64,000 nucleotides of DNA from Macromonas bipunctata (GTDB lineage: Bacteria > Pseudomonadota > Gammaproteobacteria > Burkholderiales > Burkholderiaceae_C). The stretch is taken from positions 1 through 64,000 of the forward strand of contig NZ_NWBQ01000005.1 of assembly GCF_002837135.1 (NCBI RefSeq). Reading direction: 5' to 3'. Positions 50,907 through 62,686 of this stretch are shown piece by piece; the stretch's first letter is position 1; every line of letters begins with the position of its first letter. The notes below the pieces were generated by a model that saw only the letters and a program-made list of their open reading frames with translations, was not told the origin of the DNA and did no database searches. A program made the translations under genes and the position numbers.

Positions 50907-51620
50907 ATGGCAGGTGCTGTGCCGGAGGCTTCCTCCCTCACCGGACTGGCGGCGCAGCTCAACGCTGCGCTGCCGCAAACCCAATGCACCCGCTGCGGCT
51001 ACCCGGACTGCGCGGCCTACGCGCAGGCCATCGCCCACGGCGAGGCCGCCATCAACCAGTGCCCACCGGGCGGTGCGCAAGGCGTGCGCAAGCTGGCCGC
51101 GCTGACGGGCCAACCCCTGCAAGCCCTCAACCCCGAACACGGGCAAGAAGCGCCGCGCACACTGGCCGTCATTGATGAGGATTGGTGCATCGGTTGCACC
51201 CTGTGCATCAAAGCCTGCCCCACCGACGCGATTGTGGGCACCCACAAACGCATGCACACCGTCATCGAGCCGTATTGCACCGGCTGCGAACTGTGCATTC
51301 CGGTGTGCCCGGTCGATTGCATCCAGCTGGAGAACGCGAGCGGCACCCAAACCGGCTGGGAAGCGTGGTCGATGCAACAAGCCGACACCGCCCGCGCACG
51401 CTACACGTGGCGACAACAGCGTCTGCAACGCGAAGCGGTGGAACACCAAGCGCGCCAAGAACGCAAGGCCGAAGACAAACTGGCCCATCTGGCCGAGCAC
51501 TCCAAGATCACCGACCCGGTGGTGCTGGACAAGAAACGCGTGCTGATTGAAGCCGCGCTGGCGCGTTCACGCCAGCAACGGCAAGCCGCCACAACGGCAA
51601 GCCCCAGCTCAAGCGCGTAA
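50907..51620 (+). CDS. rnfB: RnfB-like electron transport ferredoxin
   Basis: 237 residues. A Fe-S domain with [12 protein letters not shown] and a later Cys (four-cysteine cluster), then two ferredoxin 4Fe-4S motifs, [12 protein letters not shown] and [15 protein letters not shown]. This matches the soluble part of RnfB/RsxB, but the N-terminal membrane helix is absent and no other rnf genes are nearby, as is usual for the stand-alone form in Burkholderiales. The C-terminus is charged and helical. It starts 5 bp after phaZ, and its end overlaps the convergent P450 gene by 12 bp. Confidence 0.9.
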
Positions 51621-52805
51621 GCGCAAAGCGTGCAGCCCCCGGTACACAGGGTTGCCGTTGCGCTGTGGCGCAGCCGCCAGTTGCCAATGGGCGCAACGCT
51701 GGGCCAACGCCTTGAACACCGCTTGGGCCTCCAACTGGGTCAACGCAGCACCAATGCACACGTGCGGGCCACTGCCAAACGACAGCGCGCCCACGTTGCT
51801 GCGCGTGATGTCCAGCGTGTCCGGGTCGGGGTGGCGCTCAGGGTCGCGGTTGGCCGATCCGATCAGCGCCAGCACCAGTTGACCCCGACGCACCGGCTGG
51901 CCCGCCAGTTCCACGTCAGTGGCCGCACGCCGCCCCGTCCATTGCACCGGGCTGTCAAAGCGCAACAGTTCGCGCACCGCTGGAGCGGCCAGATCGGGTT
52001 GCTCGCACAGACGCTGCCACTGGTCGGGGTGCTTGAGCAAGCTCAACATGCCGTTGCCCAGCAGGTTGCGCGTGGTCTCGTAACCGGCAAACAGCAACAT
52101 GGCGCATTGGGCCACCAGCTCCGCCCCGGCTTCAATGCGGCCATCGGCTTGGGCTTGCGCCAGCAGCGTTACCCAGTCGTCGGCAGGCTCGCGCAAACGG
52201 CGGGGCAACAGGTCACGCTCAAAGTACGCGGCCATGTCCAGCAGGCTGCGCTGGGCGGTGCGGGCTTGCTCCAGCGTGGGCTGGGCCGCGCCGATGAAAG
52301 CGGCCAAATCTTCGCACCACAGCAAAAAATCGTCCTGCAAATCGGCATCCAGCCCCATCAACCGCGCCACCACCTGCGCGGGCAAAGCGCGGGCCATGTG
52401 GGCCATGAAGTCGAATTCGCCCTCAATCGGCACCGCATCGATCAGGCGTTCCACCATCAGCGCCACTTCGGGCTGCAACGCGGCCAGCCGCTCAGGCCGA
52501 AACGCCGGTTGCAGCACTTGGCGCAGCCGCTGGTGGTCGGGCGGATCGCGGAACAGCATGGCGCGCGCAAACAGGCGTTGCAGCGGGGCCAATGTGCGGC
52601 GTTCCTCGGCGTTGTCGGTGGTGTCCATCACCCAGCCGCCCGTGCGCTGGGCCGACAGACGCGGATCGCGCAACGCAGCCTCCACGTCGGCGTGGCGGGT
52701 CAGCACCCACGCGCCGCCAAAAAAGTCGTCGCGCCAGTGGATGGGCCCCGCCTCGCGCCAGGTGCGGTAGGTGGGGTAAGGGTCGTCCAGGAACTCAGGC
52801 GTCAT
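51609..52805 (-). CDS. Cytochrome P450, last gene of the biotin operon (BioI-like role possible)
   Basis: 398 residues. Haem-binding [13 protein letters not shown] with Cys350, I-helix oxygen-activation motif [11 protein letters not shown], and the K-helix ELLR. A soluble class I bacterial P450 needing ferredoxin. The ATG at 52805 overlaps the end of bioB by 11 bp, so it is translationally coupled to biotin synthase. In Bacillus subtilis the P450 BioI makes the pimeloyl moiety by cleaving fatty acyl-ACP. bioC and bioH, the usual pimeloyl genes, are absent from this operon. A BioI-like role is inferred from context only; the RnfB-like ferredoxin gene lies tail to tail with it. Confidence 0.9.
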
Positions 52806-53856
52806 GGCGCGGGGTGCAGCACGACGACGGCGCATCGGCACGCACCGCCGGGCGCTCGCCCTGGGTGTGCAGGCCCAGGCGCTCGAACAGGCGGCGGTCG
52901 CGTTCGGCCTGCGGGTTGGTGGTGGTCAACAGGCGGTCGCCATAGAAGATGGAGTTGGCACCGGCGGCAAAGCACAAAGCCTGCAGCGCGTCGTCCATCT
53001 GCTCACGGCCCGCCGACAGGCGCACCATGGTGGTGGGCATGGTGATGCGCGCCACCGCAATGGTGCGCACGAACTCGAACGGGTCGATAGGTTCGGCGTT
53101 TTCCAGCGGGGTGCCGGGCACGGCCACCAGGTTGTTGATTGGCACCGATTCGGGGTACGGATCCAAGTTGGCCAACTGCGCGATCAGACCGGCACGCTGT
53201 TCCCGTGTTTCACCCAAGCCCACAATGCCGCCGCAGCAGACGTTGATGCCCGCATCGCGCACATTGTTCAGGGTATCAAGACGGTCTTGGTAGCTGCGGG
53301 TGCTGATGATGCTGCCGTAAAAGTCGGGGGCGCTGTCAAGGTTGTGGTTGTAGTAATTCAACCCAGCGTCTTTGAGCTGGTGCGCCTGGTCGGCATCGAG
53401 CATGCCCAGCGTCATGCAGGTTTCCAGGCCCAAGGCGCGCACACCTTGCACCATTTCGGTCACGCGCTCCATGTCGCGCTCCTTGGGGCTGCGCCACGCC
53501 GCGCCCATGCAAAAGCGTGTGGCACCCTGGTCTTTGGCGGCTTGGGCGGCTTGCAACACTTCGTCCAACGGCATCAGTTTGCTGGCTTCCACGCCCGCGT
53601 CAAAGTGCGACGATTGCGGGCAGTAGCCGCAGTCTTCGGCGCAACCGCCAGTCTTGATGGACAACAGGGTGGAGAGCTGCACCTCGTTGGGGTTGAAATG
53701 CTCACGGTGTACCTGCTGGGCGCGGAACAGCAAATCCATGAACGGCAGCTCGAACAAGGCGGCCACATCGGCCACGCTCCAGCGGGCATCGGGCGCTGCC
53801 GCAGCGGGCACCGGGCGGCGCAGGGAACTCAGGGGAACAGAAGCGACAGTGGTCAT
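52795..53856 (-). CDS. bioB: Biotin synthase
   Basis: 353 residues, radical SAM enzyme. The [4Fe-4S] motif C72-x3-C76-x2-C79 ([12 protein letters not shown]) is present, as are the residues for the [2Fe-2S] cluster ([32 protein letters not shown]). Inserts sulfur into dethiobiotin. The ATG at 53856 follows the family start; it lies 13 bp after bioD. Confidence 0.97.
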
Positions 53857-53869
53857 GGTGTCTTGAAGT

Positions 53870-54610
53870 TCAGACGGAGGAAACGGCCTGCGCGTGCAGT
53901 GGCCCAAAATGGGCTTGCAACACATCGGCCTGGAAAAATCGGGCGATGCTGGCGGCATCGGGCGGGCTCAGGTGCGGCACAATGCCCCAGCACGGTACCT
54001 GGTGGCGGCGTTGCAGTTCGTGCGTCAGGGTGCGCACATTGTCGGACAGATGCGGCATGGCCGGATCTATGGTGTTGCCCACCCAGCCCACCAGACGCAA
54101 ACCGCGCGCGGCCACAGCTTCAGCGGTCAAGATGGCGTGGTTCAAGCACCCCAGGCGCAACCCGACCACCAGCACCACCGGCAAGGCAAGATCAGCCATC
54201 AGATCGGCGCTGTCCCAGTCCGGCCCCAGCGGAATGCACAGGCCGCCGGCTCCTTCCACCACCAGCACATCGGCCTGAGCGGCCAAGGCCTGCGCTCCTT
54301 GGAGCAAAGCGGCGCGGTCGATGGGACGCTGCTCCAGCGCAGCGGCAATGTGCGGAGCACAGGCGGTACGCAACTGGCACGGCCCCACCTGCGCCATCGA
54401 CACCGGCACCGGGCTGTGGCGCTGCAACAATGCCACGTCCTCGTTGATCCAGACCCCCTCGGCGTTGGGTTCCATGCCCGCCGCCACTGGCTTGTAGCCT
54501 GCGGCCCGTACACCGCGCTGGCACAGCCAGTGCAACAAGCCCGCGCTGATGTGGGTTTTGCCGACTTCGGTGTCGGTGCCGGTCACAAAAATACCGTTGA
54601 TACCGCTCAT
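53870..54610 (-). CDS. bioD: Dethiobiotin synthetase
   Basis: 246 residues. N-terminal P-loop [20 protein letters not shown] and the [15 protein letters not shown] block. Carboxylates 7,8-diaminopelargonate with ATP. The ATG overlaps the bioF stop (ATGA). Confidence 0.96.
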
Positions 54611-55815
54611 GCGGGCTCCAGATGTTGTGCCACATCGGCCAAAGCGTGCAGCAACTGCGCCACATCGGCCATGCTGTGCGCGGCGCTGAAGGTGATGCGC
54701 AAACGCGCTGTGCCCACCGGCACGGTGGGCGGACGGATGGCGGGCACCCACAGCCCTTGCGCCTCCAACGCAGCCGACAGGCGCAAAGCGGTCTCGTTGC
54801 CCCCCACCACCAGCGGCTGGATGGCGGTGTACGAATCCGGCAGTGACCAATCGGGCCGCTGGGCCAGCACAGGTTGCACCCCAGCCCGCCATTGGGCCAG
54901 CAGATTGCGCAGGTGGGCGCGCCGCACATCGCCCTCCGGGCTTTCGATCAGGGCCAGACTGGCGCGCAGCGTGTGGGCCTGCACGGCGGGCATGGCGGTG
55001 GTATAGATGTAGCTGCGGGCGCGCTGCACCAGCCACGCAATGATGGTGGGGTGAGCGGCCACAAAGGCCCCGGCCACCCCTGCGGCCTTGCCCAGCGTGC
55101 CCATCACAATCAGGCGCTCGCTGCACAAGCCGAAATGCTCCAGGGTGCCGTGGCCGTGCGCGCCCAGCACCCCGAGGCCGTGCGCGTCGTCCAGCACCAG
55201 CCAAGCGTCGTGGGCCTCGGCCAGCGCCAGCAAGGCGGGCACATCGGCCACATCCCCGTCCATGCTGAACACCGCATCGGTAACGATGAGCTTGATGGGC
55301 GTGTCACAGGCGCGCAATTGGCGCTCCAGCACATCCAGCGCGCCATGTGGGTAGCGCAACCGCTTGGCCGCCGGTGCCAACAAGCTGCCGTCGATCAAAG
55401 ATGCGTGGTTGAGCTTGTCGGAAAAAATCGTGGTCTGGCCATCGGCCAAAGCGGTCATCAGTGCCAAATTGGCGGCGTAACCGCTGCCCAGCACCAGTGC
55501 GCGCGCGCCCGGAATGTGCGGTGCGAACCAGCGCGCCAGATCATCCTCCAACTCGGCATGGGCTTGGGTATGGCCACTGACCAGGTGCGAGGCCCCACTG
55601 CCCACCCCCCAGCGTTGCGCGCCCTCGCTCGAAGCCGCGACCAACGTGGGATGGTGGGCCAAACCCAAATAGTCGTTGCTGCAAAAGGCCAGCAACGCCT
55701 GGCCTGATGCCTGCGTGACCTGCGGCGCGCAGGGACTGGCTACCGTGCGGGGTCGGCGGCGCAACCCGGCAGCGTCCAGTTCAAGCAGTTGGCGGTGGAG
55801 ATGGCGAATCAGCAT
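54607..55815 (-). CDS. bioF: 8-amino-7-oxononanoate synthase
   Basis: 402 residues, alpha-oxoamine synthase family. ALLAFCSNDYLGLAHHP near the N-terminus, GSGASHLVSGHTQAHAELE, DDAHGLGVLG, and the PLP lysine in IVMGTLGKAAGVAGAF. Condenses pimeloyl-ACP or -CoA with alanine. The start overlaps the end of bioA by 35 bp. Confidence 0.96.
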   Translation of the reverse strand: MLIRHLHRQLLELDAAGLRRRPRTVASPCAPQVTQASGQALLAFCSNDYLGLAHHPTLVAASSEGAQRWGVGSGASHLVSGHTQAHAELEDDLARWFAPHIPGARALVLGSGYAANLALMTALADGQTTIFSDKLNHASLIDGSLLAPAAKRLRYPHGALDVLERQLRACDTPIKLIVTDAVFSMDGDVADVPALLALAEAHDAWLVLDDAHGLGVLGAHGHGTLEHFGLCSERLIVMGTLGKAAGVAGAFVAAHPTIIAWLVQRARSYIYTTAMPAVQAHTLRASLALIESPEGDVRRAHLRNLLAQWRAGVQPVLAQRPDWSLPDSYTAIQPLVVGGNETALRLSAALEAQGLWVPAIRPPTVPVGTARLRITFSAAHSMADVAQLLHALADVAQHLEPA

Positions 55816-57160
55816 CGAGACAAGCCGTCGCCTCGTCCAGCACCGCCATCAGGCGCTGTGCCAGCCACTGCGACAGGGCTTCATTCAACAGGTAAGGGGG
55901 CATCAGGTACACGGTGCGGCCTATGGGGCGGATCAGCAACTCGTACCGCCGTGCAATCTGGTGGAAACGTTCGGCAAAACGCCCTTGGGCGTGTTCGGGC
56001 CGCACATCGAAGGCCCAAATCATGCCACAACGCCGCCAGTGTTCGATGCGTGGGTCTTTGTGCAGGGGCTGCAATGCAGCGTCCAACGTCAAGGCTTGCT
56101 GGGCGTTGTGCGCCAGCACGTCGTCTTGCTCAAAACGATCCAAGACGGCCAGCGCCGCCCGGCATGCCAGCGCGTTGCCGGTGTAGGAGTGGGAATGCAG
56201 AAAACCGCGCGCCACATCGTCGGAGAGGAAAGCGCGGTACACCGCATCGCGCGTCAACACCAGCGACAACGGCAAATAACCGCCCGTGATGCCCTTGGAC
56301 AGGCACACAAAATCGGGCCAGATGCCTGCCTGCTCGCAGGCAAAAAAGGTGCCGGTGCGACCACAACCGACCGCAATCTCATCGGCAATCAAATGCACCT
56401 GGTAACGGTCGCACAGCGCACGCACTTGCCGGACGTAAGACGCATCGTGCATGGCCATGCCCGCCGCGCACTGCACCAGCGGCTCAATGATGACGGCGGC
56501 GATCTGGCCTTGGCGCTGTTGCAACACAGCCTCCAGCTCGGCAGCAGCGCGTTGCGCTACGGCGGCAGCATCCTCGCCGGGCTGGGCTTGGCGTGCATCG
56601 GGGCTGGCAACCTGGTGCGACCGCATCAACAGCGGGTCGTAAGCATCGCGGAACACGGCCACGTCGGTCACGGCCAATGCGCCCAGCGTCTCGCCGTGGT
56701 AGCCCTGACGCAGGCAGACAAACCCGCGCTTGTCGCCCTGCCCCACGTTGCGCCAGTAATGGAAACTCATCTTCAGCGCAATTTCCACCGCCGAAGCGCC
56801 ATCACTGGCGTAAAAAGCGTGCCCCAGCACGCCACCTGTACGTGCCGACAGGCGTTCGGCCAATTCCACCGCCGGGGCGTGGGTACACCCGGCCAGCATC
56901 ACGTGCGGCAGCGTGTCCAACTGCGCCTTGAGCGCGGTGTTGATGCGCTCATCGGCGTGGCCAAACAGGTTGACCCACCAGCTGCTGTTGGCATCGAAGT
57001 AGCGTTGTCCGTCTTGGTCGAACAGCCACGGGCCACTGGCGCGGGCAATCGGCAAGGGCGGCACCACCTCGGCACGCTGCATCTGGGTACACGGGTGCCA
57101 CACGCTGGCCAGCGTGCGGCGTTGCCATTCGGCGTTGGAACTGACGGGGCTGGAACTCAT
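55781..57160 (-). CDS. bioA: Adenosylmethionine-8-amino-7-oxononanoate aminotransferase
   Basis: 459 residues, class III aminotransferase. WHPCTQMQ at the start and the SAM-pocket region [14 protein letters not shown] are specific to BioA; the PLP lysine is in [13 protein letters not shown] and the aspartate in [14 protein letters not shown]. Its ATG overlaps the stop of the VOC gene (ATGA), which links biotin synthesis to the carboxylase genes upstream. Confidence 0.96.
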
Positions 57161-57633
57161 CCCGCCAATGTAGCAAATGCCTGCACCACCTCGGGCGGTG
57201 CCTGCACCAACTCAATCAACACGCCCTCACCGGCGATCGGAAACTCGTCGCTGGCCTTGGGGTGCAAAAAGCAGATGTCAAAACCCGCTGCGCCCTTACG
57301 GATACCGCCCGGCGCAAAGCGCACCCCTTGGGCGGTGAGCCACTCCACGGCCTGCGGCAGGTCGTCGATCCACAGCCCCACGTGGTTGAGCGGCGTGGCG
57401 TGGACAGCGGGTTTTTTGTCCGGATCCAGCGGCTGCATCAAGTCCACCTCGACCTTGAACGGGCCCGTGCCCATCGCGCAGATGTCCTCGTCCACGTTCT
57501 CGCGTTCGCTCTTGAACGTGCCGGTGACTTCCAGCCCCAACATGTCCACCCACAGCTTTTGCAAGCGGGTCTTGTCGGGGCCACCGATGGCAATTTGCTG
57601 GATGCTCAGCACCTTGAACGGACGCTGGCTCAT
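57157..57633 (-). CDS. VOC superfamily protein, methylmalonyl-CoA epimerase-like
   Basis: 158 residues, two betaalphabetabetabeta modules. The second half ([33 protein letters not shown]) closely resembles methylmalonyl-CoA epimerase and keeps a His and a Glu metal ligand. The first module has QQIAIG where epimerases normally carry a His ligand, so metal binding may differ. Position between pccA and bioA, with mcm in the same operon, supports an epimerase role in propionyl-CoA to succinyl-CoA conversion. A glyoxalase-like activity is the alternative. Confidence 0.75.
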
Positions 57634-59678
57634 TTCTCAAACTCCACAATCGGTTGATCCACCACCAGCGATTCGCCCTTGTGGGCCAACACCTTGGCCA
57701 CCACGCCATCGGCGGCGGCAAACAGCACGTTTTCCATCTTCATGGCTTCGATGACGGCCACGCGTTCGCCCGCCTGCACCTTCTGGCCGACCTGCACCGC
57801 CACATCCACCAGCAAGCCCGGCATCGGCGACAGCACAAAGCGGCTCATGTCCGGCGGGGCCTTGAACGGCATCATGGCTTGCAGCTCGGCCGCGCGCGGC
57901 GACATGACCATGCACTCCAGCTTGGTGCCGTTGTGCTGCACCACCAGCGCCAGCGGGTTGCGGGCTGTACCGCGCTCAATTTGCGCGGTAAACGGGTTGC
58001 CGTTCACCGTGCCGGTGATGACAATATCGTTCAGGCGCGAGGCGGAACAGATGTGGTAACGCTTGCCATTGACGTAAGCAGTGGCCGAGGTGGCGGTATC
58101 GCCATCGTCCACCTGCACGCCGGTGTGGCGGTGTTGTCCATCGCGCGACAGGCTGACCACGGTGTAGGCCTTCTCGACCTGGACGCCGTAACCCGGCAAT
58201 TGGCCCGACATGCCCGAAGCGCGCTGACGCGACTTGCGGCGCACGAACGCGGCCAGTGCCACCAGCAAATTTTCGTCGTCGTGCGGCACATCCTCGGCGT
58301 GGAAGCCACCGGCGTAATGGTGCGCAATGAAGCCGGTGTTGAAGTTGCCCGACACAAAATCCGGGTGCGCCAACAGCGCCGCTTGGAACGGGATGTTGCT
58401 GTTGATGCCACGGATAACAAAACCGTTGAGCGCCTCGCGCATCTTGGCAATCGCATCGTTGCGGTCTTTGCCATGTACGATGAGCTTGGCGATCATCGAA
58501 TCGTAGTACATCGGGATCTCGCCACCCTCGAACACGCCGGTATCGACGCGCACACCGTACTTCTGCGACGGATCGGCCTGCCACATGGTTTCAGCCGGTG
58601 GCGTGAAACGCACCAAGCGGCCTGTGGATGGCAAAAAGTTGCGGAACGGGTCTTCGGCGTTGATACGGCACTCCATCGCCCAGCCGTCGCGCTTGATGTC
58701 TTCTTGACGCAGGTTGAGCTTCTCGCCGGCGGCCACGCGGATCATCTGCTCCACCAAGTCCAGCCCGGTGATGCACTCGGTGACGGGGTGTTCCACCTGC
58801 AAGCGGGTGTTCATTTCCAGAAAGTAGAAGTCCTGGTTCTTGCCCACCACAAATTCCACCGTGCCGGCGGACTGGTATTTCACAGCCTTGGCCAATGCCA
58901 CAGCCTGCTCACCCATCGCCTTGCGGGTTTCTTCGCTGATGAAGGGCGACGGTGCTTCCTCGATCACCTTCTGGTGGCGGCGCTGGATGGAGCACTCGCG
59001 CTCATTGAGGTACACCACGTTGCCGTGGCTGTCGCCCAGAATCTGGATTTCGATGTGGCGTGGCTGCTCCACAAACTTTTCAATAAAGATGCGGTCGTCG
59101 CCAAAGCTGTTGCGCGCTTCGTTCTGACAAGCGGTAAAGCCTTCCAAGGCTTCCTTGTCGTTGAAGGCCACGCGCAAGCCCTTGCCGCCACCACCCGCCG
59201 AGGCTTTGATCATCACCGGATAGCCGATACCCTTGGCGATCTCGACCGCCGCTTCGGCGTTGGCAATCGGGTCGTTGTAACCCGGAATGGTGTTGACCTG
59301 GGCCTCGTTGGCCAGCTTCTTGGAAGCGATCTTGTCGCCCATGGCGGCAATGCTGTGGGCCTTGGGGCCAATGAAGGCAATGCCTTCGTCTTCACAACGT
59401 TGGGCAAAGGCTTCGTTTTCGCTCAGAAAGCCGTAACCCGGATGGATGGCCTGGGCCCCCGTGACCTTGGCGGCGGCAATGATCTTGTCGGCCACCAGAT
59501 AGGACTCGCGCGACGGGGCCGGGCCCAGCAACACGGCCTCATCGGCCAGGCGCACATGGCGCGCTTCTTTGTCGGCCTCGGAATACACCGCCACAGTGGC
59601 GATGCCCATTTTCTTGGCGGTGGCGATGACGCGGCAGGCAATCTCGCCCCGGTTGGCAATGAGGATCTTCTTAAACAT
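57630..59678 (-). CDS. pccA: Propionyl-CoA (acyl-CoA) carboxylase alpha subunit
   Basis: 682 residues. Biotin carboxylase domain ([20 protein letters not shown]-grasp loop [26 protein letters not shown]), a BT/linker domain and a C-terminal biotinyl domain with the biotin-accepting lysine in EAMKMEN. Carboxylates biotin for transfer to propionyl-CoA by PccB. An in-frame GTG directly precedes the chosen ATG. The stop overlaps the start of the VOC gene (ATGA). Confidence 0.95.
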
Positions 59679-59728
59679 CACATGTCTCCATCGGGTTGGG
59701 TTGGGTCTTTGGGGTCAGGTGCGGGCCT

Positions 59729-61152: not shown

Positions 61153-62686
61153 TCAGAGCGGAATGTTGCCGTGCTTGCGCCACGGGTTGTCCAGCTGTTT
61201 ATCTTTGAGCATGACCAAGCTGCGGCAAATGCGCTTACGAGTTTCGTGCGGCAGGATCACGTCGTCAATGAAGCCACGCGCGCCCGCCACAAACGGGTTG
61301 GCAAAGCGGGACTTGTACTCGGCCTCGCGCTCGGCCAGCTTGGCCGGGTCTTTCTTTTCTTCGCGGAAGATGATTTCCACCGCACCCTTGGCCCCCATCA
61401 CCGCAATTTCAGCGTTGGGCCAAGCCAAGTTCACGTCGCCGCGCAAATGCTTGGAGCTCATCACGTCGTAAGCGCCGCCGTAGGCCTTGCGGGTGATGAC
61501 GGTGATTTTAGGCACCGTGCATTCGGCGTAGGCGTACAGCAACTTGGCACCGTGCTTGATGATGCCGCCGTATTCTTGGCTGGTACCGGGCATGAAACCC
61601 GGCACGTCCACAAACGTGACCACCGGAATGTTGAACGCATCGCAAAAGCGCACAAAACGCGCGGCCTTGATGGACGATTTGATGTCCAAACAGCCCGCCA
61701 GCACCAGCGGCTGGTTGGCCACAATGCCCACGGTTTGCCCGCCCATGCGCGCAAAACCGATGAGGATGTTGCCCGCGTAATCGGGTTGCAGCTCAAAAAA
61801 GTCACCGTCGTCCACAGTCTTGACGATCAGCTCTTTCATGTCGTAGGGCTTGTTCGGGTTGTCGGGCACCAAAGTGTCCAGACTCAGCTCGGCACGCTCA
61901 ATCGGGTCGGTGCCGGGGCGCACCGGGGCTTTTTCTTTGTTGTTGAGCGGCAGGTAGTTGTAGAGGCGGCGCAGCATCAGCAACGCTTCCACATCGTTTT
62001 CAAACGCCAAATCGGCCACACCGCTGCGAGTGCTGTGGGTAATGGCACCGCCCAACTCTTCGGCGGTCACTTCCTCGTGCGTCACGGTCTTGACCACTTC
62101 GGGGCCGGTCACGAACATGTAGCTCGAATCCTTGACCATGAAAATAAAGTCGGTCATGGCCGGGGAATACACGGCCCCCCCCCGCGCACGGGCCCATGAT
62201 CATGGAAATTTGCGGCACCACACCGCTGGCCATCACGTTGCGTTGGAACACGTCGGCGTAACCGCCCAGCGATGCCACACCTTCCTGAATCCGCGCTCCG
62301 CCCGAATCGTTGAGGCCGATCACCGGTGCGCCCACCTTCATGGCCTGGTCCATCACCTTGCAGATTTTTTCGGCGTGGGCTTCCGACAGCGCACCACCAA
62401 ACACGGTGAAATCTTGGCTGAAGGCAAAGGCCAAGCGGCCATTGATCATGCCATAGCCCGTGACCACACCGTCGCCCGGGATCTTGTTGTCGGCCATGCC
62501 AAAGTCGTTGCAGCGGTGCTCAACGAACATGTCCCATTCTTCAAAGGTGCCTTCGTCAAACAGCAGCTCCAGGCGTTCACGCGCCGTCAGCTTGCCTTTG
62601 GCGTGTTGGGCTGCGATGCGTTTCTGGCCGCCACCCAAGCGCGCAGCTTCGCGCTTTTGTTCCAGTTGTTGCAGGATTTCGTGCAT
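61153..62686 (-). pseudogene. pccB: Propionyl-CoA carboxylase beta subunit, frame broken at a poly-G tract
   Basis: Removing one base from the nine-base run at 62175-62183 (C on plus, G on the coding strand) gives 510 residues, the standard PccB length. The N-terminal part runs to [11 protein letters not shown], where the oxyanion-forming glycines lie; reading resumes with [19 protein letters not shown] in the other frame and ends KHGNIPL. The C-terminal carboxyltransferase motifs are intact. The gene would be essential for the operon's function, so a homopolymer sequencing error is the simplest explanation; a real null allele or phase variation is possible. Confidence 0.88.

Follow-up and report, generated by a model that had tools for sequence, protein, structure and literature searches.

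A cytochrome P450 gene conserved in beta-proteobacterial biotin gene clusters, encoding a candidate BioI-like pimeloyl-ACP-forming enzyme

Organization of the biotin genes and the P450 gene

The window, that is, the whole analysed stretch of 64,000 nucleotides from Macromonas bipunctata, contained a minus-strand run of genes in the order carboxylase alpha subunit, VOC protein, bioA, bioF, bioD, bioB and cytochrome P450, with a convergent ferredoxin gene at its end:

50907..51620, plus strand: RnfB/RsxB-like ferredoxin, convergent, with a 12-bp tail overlap with the P450 end
51609..52805, minus strand: cytochrome P450, candidate BioI-like pimeloyl-ACP-forming enzyme (398 aa plus stop, ATG start)
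52795..53856, minus strand: bioB, biotin synthase (TIGR00433, 418.5 bits, cut-off 225)
53870..54610, minus strand: bioD, dethiobiotin synthetase (TIGR00347)
54607..55815, minus strand: bioF (TIGR00858)
55781..57160, minus strand: bioA, DAPA aminotransferase (TIGR00508)
57157..57633, minus strand: VOC-family protein, methylmalonyl-CoA epimerase-like (TIGR03081, below cut-off), with a 4-bp overlap with bioA
57630..59681, minus strand: biotin-dependent acyl-CoA carboxylase alpha subunit (pccA), a biotin-consuming enzyme encoded in this run

In the profile search, bioA, bioF, bioD, and bioB each scored above the curated NCBIfam cut-off. The P450 open reading frame was intact, and its start overlapped the bioB stop by 11 bp (52795-52805), in agreement with the initial annotation, which had placed the P450 gene at the end of bioA-bioF-bioD-bioB. 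Spacing was tight throughout the operon, with overlaps of 4-35 bp and a single gap of 13 bp; upstream of bioA, the VOC gene and the carboxylase alpha subunit gene (57157-59681) were joined by 4-bp overlaps each. By inspection of the open reading frames and by profiles, none of bioC, bioH, bioW, and bioZ was seen in the run, which bears out the earlier description of an operon lacking bioC, bioH, or any other pimeloyl gene.

Linkage of the P450 to biotin genes in other genomes

To place the P450 in context, 200 genomes of the window's family were surveyed. Among the matches listed, full-length P450s in these genomes showed either 46-67% or at most 38% identity to the window P450. Stretches around 20 family P450s were inspected. 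Bio genes were present in 14 of the 16 stretches whose P450 shared at least 47% identity (tblastn), the exceptions being L050 and L041, the latter with a contig end just upstream, and in none of the four with less than 47% identity (L053-L055, L057). With equal flanks of 1.5 kb, bio genes were found at 14 of 20 loci with about 44% identity or more (L008-L027), and at none of ten loci of distant family P450s with at most 38% identity (L028-L037).

A scan of named genomes gave 153 P450 relatives, of which the best 80 were analysed as loci. At 53 of these best 80 loci, bio genes occurred in the stretch, and at 51 of them the P450 gene directly followed a same-strand bio gene (bioB in 33, bioD in 16, and bioF in 2). 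The hosts included Comamonadaceae, Burkholderiaceae, Sphaerotilaceae, Thiomonas, and Thauera. Gene orders varied, comprising bioA-F-D-B-P450, bioA-F-D-P450, bioB-P450-bioA-F-D, bioF-P450, and bioB-P450 alone; since the association persisted in these changing orders, the linkage has been kept through rearrangement. In one genome (L048, G161), P450 and BioA formed a single open frame of 897 aa, an in-frame fusion; in a relative of this locus (L184) the two were separate. The P450 belongs to these biotin clusters as a conserved member and is not a chance neighbour.

The remaining 27 of the best 80 loci had no bio gene in the stretch, eight of them with less than 2.5 kb of upstream sequence. They comprised a Massilia/Pseudoduganella group, a terC-like group, Cupriavidus replicons, and single cases, and their P450 genes may have been relocated or may serve other roles. 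In the terC-like group (L186 and about ten relatives), a clade of unlinked P450s, the P450 gene precedes a terC-like gene and has a gene of the succinyl-CoA ligase type upstream of it. On large replicons, in Cupriavidus and in Massilia plasmid records, P450 orthologues of 51-57% identity were found. At two loci (L147, L154), a P450 orthologue lay beside a biotin carboxylase-like protein of 1199 aa. Further, Caballeronia sordidicola S170 carried two distinct P450 copies on the same contig (L144, L190), one following bioB and the other divergent from bioA.

Distribution of the P450 in the family

The P450 was found in 21 of the 200 family genomes, a count made up of orthologues of at least 44% identity plus, from G103, a fragment at a contig end that lay outside the P450 search matches, so that further fragments may have been missed. 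A bioD gene was present in 19 of the 21 P450 genomes vs. 71 of the 179 others (Fisher p 7e-6, kinship ignored), and bioB in 18 of the 21 vs. 111 of the 179 (p 0.02, kinship ignored). Both P450 genomes without bioD (G056, G103) were fragmented assemblies, as were two of those without bioB (G042, G056); the third (G167) had its P450 in pieces on two contigs. In G038, the P450 lay in two frames and may be broken.

In four close relatives (G166, G190, G088, G178), bioB faced the RnfB gene with no P450 in between (L115-L118). Complete bioA-F-D-B sets were retained at three P450-free loci (L116, L117, and L120 of G072), while L118 showed bioD-bioB at a contig start and L115 bioB alone. Since the P450-free loci keep the RnfB gene opposite bioB, the P450 was gained or lost at that spot and the RnfB gene stayed.

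The adjacent RnfB-like ferredoxin had been proposed as a conceivable electron donor of the P450. This proposal was not supported: besides occupying the same place in the four P450-free stretches, an RnfB-like gene was near only 7 of the 80 named P450 loci (best 80 of 153). A dedicated partnership with the P450 is thus unsupported, and the RnfB-like gene is best regarded as a resident neighbour.

Sequence motifs, predicted structure and phylogeny of the P450

The window protein matched PF00067 with 77.8 bits and carried all the features of a cytochrome P450, namely the heme-ligand Cys, the ExxR motif, and the I-helix acid-alcohol pair. Cys350 (heme ligand), Glu279/Arg282 (ExxR), and Glu243-Thr244 (I-helix pair) were invariant in all 16 aligned orthologues. 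Like BioI, it is encoded within a biotin operon. Its identity to P450BioI was about 31-32% (3ejb/3ejd/3eje) and to CYP107P2 (8yhn) 34%. In CYP naming, 40% identity defines a family and at least 55% a subfamily, and the window P450 falls below the identity needed for the name of BioI (CYP107H). When three queries were compared by sequence with solved structures, P450BioI came 8th, 6th, and 3rd.

The predicted structure was of middling confidence (pLDDT 79, pTM 0.84). In a Foldseek search with this model, BioI entries appeared from rank 5 on. When the best 1000 chains were realigned, the entries of P450BioI with acyl-ACP took ranks 1-3 (Z 38.1, 38.0, and 37.8; rmsd 3.2-3.3 over 366-370 residues), followed by CalO2 (Z 36.2). 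P450BioI is the best structural match to the predicted model of the window P450.

A quick tree was built from 62 of 86 rows, 24 being left out; the 86 rows included 64 of the 80 named loci. The beta-proteobacterial P450s of this group formed one clade (SH-aLRT 100), within which bio-linked and unlinked copies were interspersed. BioI fell outside this clade, among other P450s. The tree thus did not show BioI as the specific sister of the clade; the topology test rejected neither BioI (p-AU 0.27) nor another P450 (p-AU 0.26) in that position. Judging from these sequences, the beta-proteobacterial P450 may represent a recruitment separate from BioI.

Other pimelate routes in the window genome and its family

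In the literature consulted, BioC/BioH, BioI/BioW, BioZ, and BioE are described as pimelate routes. The window genome (completeness 99.86%) was searched for BioW, FabH-type enzymes, BioH, and BioC. No match to the BioW profile (TIGR01204) was obtained, while the B. subtilis control was matched. A single FabH (TIGR00747) was found, between plsX- and fabD-like genes, and the same search gave no second KAS III as would be used in the BioZ route. A search for bioC and bioH had been suggested as a check of the P450 proposal, and neither was found above its curated cut-off. The best BioH match reached 79.7 bits (cut-off 206.95) with a profile that does not extend to non-homologous esterases, while as PcaD the same protein reached 254.1 bits, slightly short of the 255.85 required. 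The best BioC match reached 77.9 bits (cut-off 184.95) and covered only model positions 97-242.

The gene of this BioC-like protein (L001:1126-2055, C65) adjoins a comF-like gene, and the protein lacks SAM motif I. Among 56 BioC-like proteins aligned with E. coli BioC, the motif was clear in five (L109-L113) and partly kept in three (L098, L099, L101), while its first glycine was missing in 46. Matches to the BioC-like gene occurred in 195 of the 200 family genomes and in 106 of the 110 genomes without a bioD match, showing that the gene is not tied to biotin synthesis. As it is kept in bioD-free genomes with a mostly degraded SAM motif I, the BioC-like protein is not favoured as a hidden pimelate enzyme. 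The protein encoded beside the comF-like gene is possibly a former methyltransferase with another present role. We also discarded a pairing of P450 presence with BioC decay, because decay was seen in P450-free genomes too and two P450 genomes (G048, G164) keep an intact-looking motif.

Only one of the 200 family genomes had a BioC above the curated cut-off, with one more just under it. The gene above the cut-off (G125, C197:35187-36541) adjoins a very divergent bioD (29%), which suggests transfer or contamination.

P450-free relatives with bioA-F-D-B (G190, G088, G072) were likewise without a BioC above the cut-off. Across the family, bioD was present in 90 of 200 genomes, most of which had neither the P450 nor such a BioC. 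Given these counts (P450 21, bioD 90, curated BioC 1, each of 200), another pimelate route or precursor uptake in the family is likely. Thauera (L187) combined a canonical BioC (236 bits) and bioA, F, D, and B with the P450, together with a BioH-like protein under the cut-off (112 bits), so that the P450 there may be only an addition.

Proposed function of the P450

The P450 is probably dedicated to the biotin pathway and acts as P450BioI does, cleaving acyl-ACP to supply pimeloyl-ACP to BioF. It would bind long-chain acyl-ACP and oxidise the neighbouring carbons C7 and C8, consuming O2, with a general ferredoxin or flavodoxin system as the source of electrons; cleavage of the C7-C8 bond would yield pimeloyl-ACP, to be taken up by BioF of the same operon. 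Substrate, reaction, and electron donor are proposed as the most likely ones on the basis of the gene context and of BioI as described in the literature.

P450BioI (CYP107H1) of Bacillus subtilis resembles the window P450 in its biotin-operon location, intact motifs, identity of about 31-32%, and best structural match. It differs in that it did not group with the window clade in the tree, although a sister position was not rejected, and that the window genome has no BioW. Published descriptions further present BioI as an enigma, non-essential in B. subtilis and yielding a product that the BioF of this species cannot use (PMC7645780), and a 2025 paper calls it unique to B. subtilis (PMC12915131). 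Two reports describe such enzymes in action. A Moraxella mutant without pimeloyl-ACP methyl ester esterase was rescued by B. subtilis bioI (PMC7026016), and the BioI-like P450 MkpG of Streptomyces was essential for alpha-methyl-KAPA, its deletion abolishing the product (PMC13336041); together, these show that BioI-like P450s are able to feed such steps. MkpG, by its description in the latter paper, is also alike in being proposed to act just before a BioF-like enzyme, although it serves an antimetabolite made from branched chains and has its own ACP and ketosynthase within the mkp cluster. BioE, a ferritin-like diiron oxygenase, is described as converting long acyl-ACP to pimeloyl-ACP in an O2-dependent reaction that bypasses BioC/BioH (PMC12915131), as proposed here for the P450, but it contains non-haem iron and belongs to another enzyme family. 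The BioC-BioH route of E. coli likewise supplies pimeloyl-ACP to BioF; it differs in that a BioC above the cut-off was found in only 1 of the 200 family genomes, with a BioC-like protein devoid of SAM motif I in the window genome.

The initial annotation had suggested this P450 as a betaproteobacterial source of pimelate. In favour of this are the linkage to biotin clusters, the BioI-like predicted structure, and a window genome without BioW, a second FabH, or BioC and BioH above the cut-offs. The suggestion is weakened by the P450-free relatives that have the same operon and also lack BioC, and by Thauera, where BioC, a BioH-like protein, and the P450 occur together. In the window genome, the P450 may be the main pimelate source, or it may supplement, in an O2-dependent manner, an unrecognised route shared with the P450-free relatives. 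A further-reaching reading, which we put forward tentatively and with less than even confidence, is that in a broad set of beta-proteobacteria that no longer have a working BioC a P450 recruited independently of BioI is the physiological, and possibly the only, source of pimeloyl-ACP, making the first step O2-dependent and having been fused to BioA in one lineage.

The formation of pimeloyl-ACP by a P450 has so far been credited almost only to Bacillus BioI. Among the papers listed by our literature searches, in which subscription journals were thinly covered, none dealt with a beta-proteobacterial P450 of biotin synthesis. If the P450 were the sole or physiological source, it would be, as far as the literature found tells, the first BioI-type P450 to feed its host's own biotin pathway, and biotin synthesis would be O2-dependent at its first step. 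The large clade of biotin-operon P450s, many of them beside bioF, offers hosts for testing what role acyl-ACP cleavage by a P450 has in nature. The window genome has neither BioW nor a BioC above the cut-off, and 199 of the 200 searched family genomes are without such a BioC.

A role late in the pathway, with dethiobiotin, biotin, or a by-product of BioB as the substrate and, for example, a modified vitamer or assisted BioB turnover as the outcome, appears unlikely. It would fit the position of bioB directly upstream in 33 of the 51 adjacent loci, the bioB-P450 pairs without adjoining bioA or bioD (L143, L144, L206) or without bioF, and the occurrence in Thauera of the P450 together with BioC and a BioH-like gene. 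However, the gene directly upstream is bioD in 16 loci and bioF in two, the fusion partner in L048 is BioA, and the nearest structures are those of BioI bound to acyl-ACP.

Still less likely is cleavage of free fatty acids or acyl-CoA to pimelic acid or pimeloyl-CoA, with a CoA ligase finishing the conversion if needed. According to a review, BioI can cleave not only fatty acyl-ACPs but also long-chain fatty acids (PMC11089781), and Cupriavidus metallidurans has a gene, pauA, annotated as a pimelate-CoA ligase (PMC2864759). The closest structures, in contrast, are P450-ACP complexes, and the absence of BioW from the window genome also argues against this route. Finally, we consider it very unlikely that the P450 is an operon passenger serving some other purpose, for example detoxification or the hydroxylation of fatty acids: although bio genes were missing nearby at 27 of the best 80 of 153 loci and the P450 is absent from closely related genomes in which bio genes remain at the same place (L115-L118, L120), the linkage spans several bacterial families and many gene orders, and both the P450-BioA fusion and the co-occurrence with bioD argue against a passenger.

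Apart from the P450, biotin-dependent carboxylase genes were encoded near biotin genes or bioB-P450 pairs in the window (57157-59681) and at three other loci (L156, L206, L195), as if the carboxylase were travelling with its own cofactor supply. In the window, the acyl-CoA carboxylase beta gene (61153-62686), also a gene of a biotin-dependent enzyme, was split over two overlapping frames by a real or an assembly frameshift, with positions 170-512 of the mmdA profile in one frame and the apparent start in the other.
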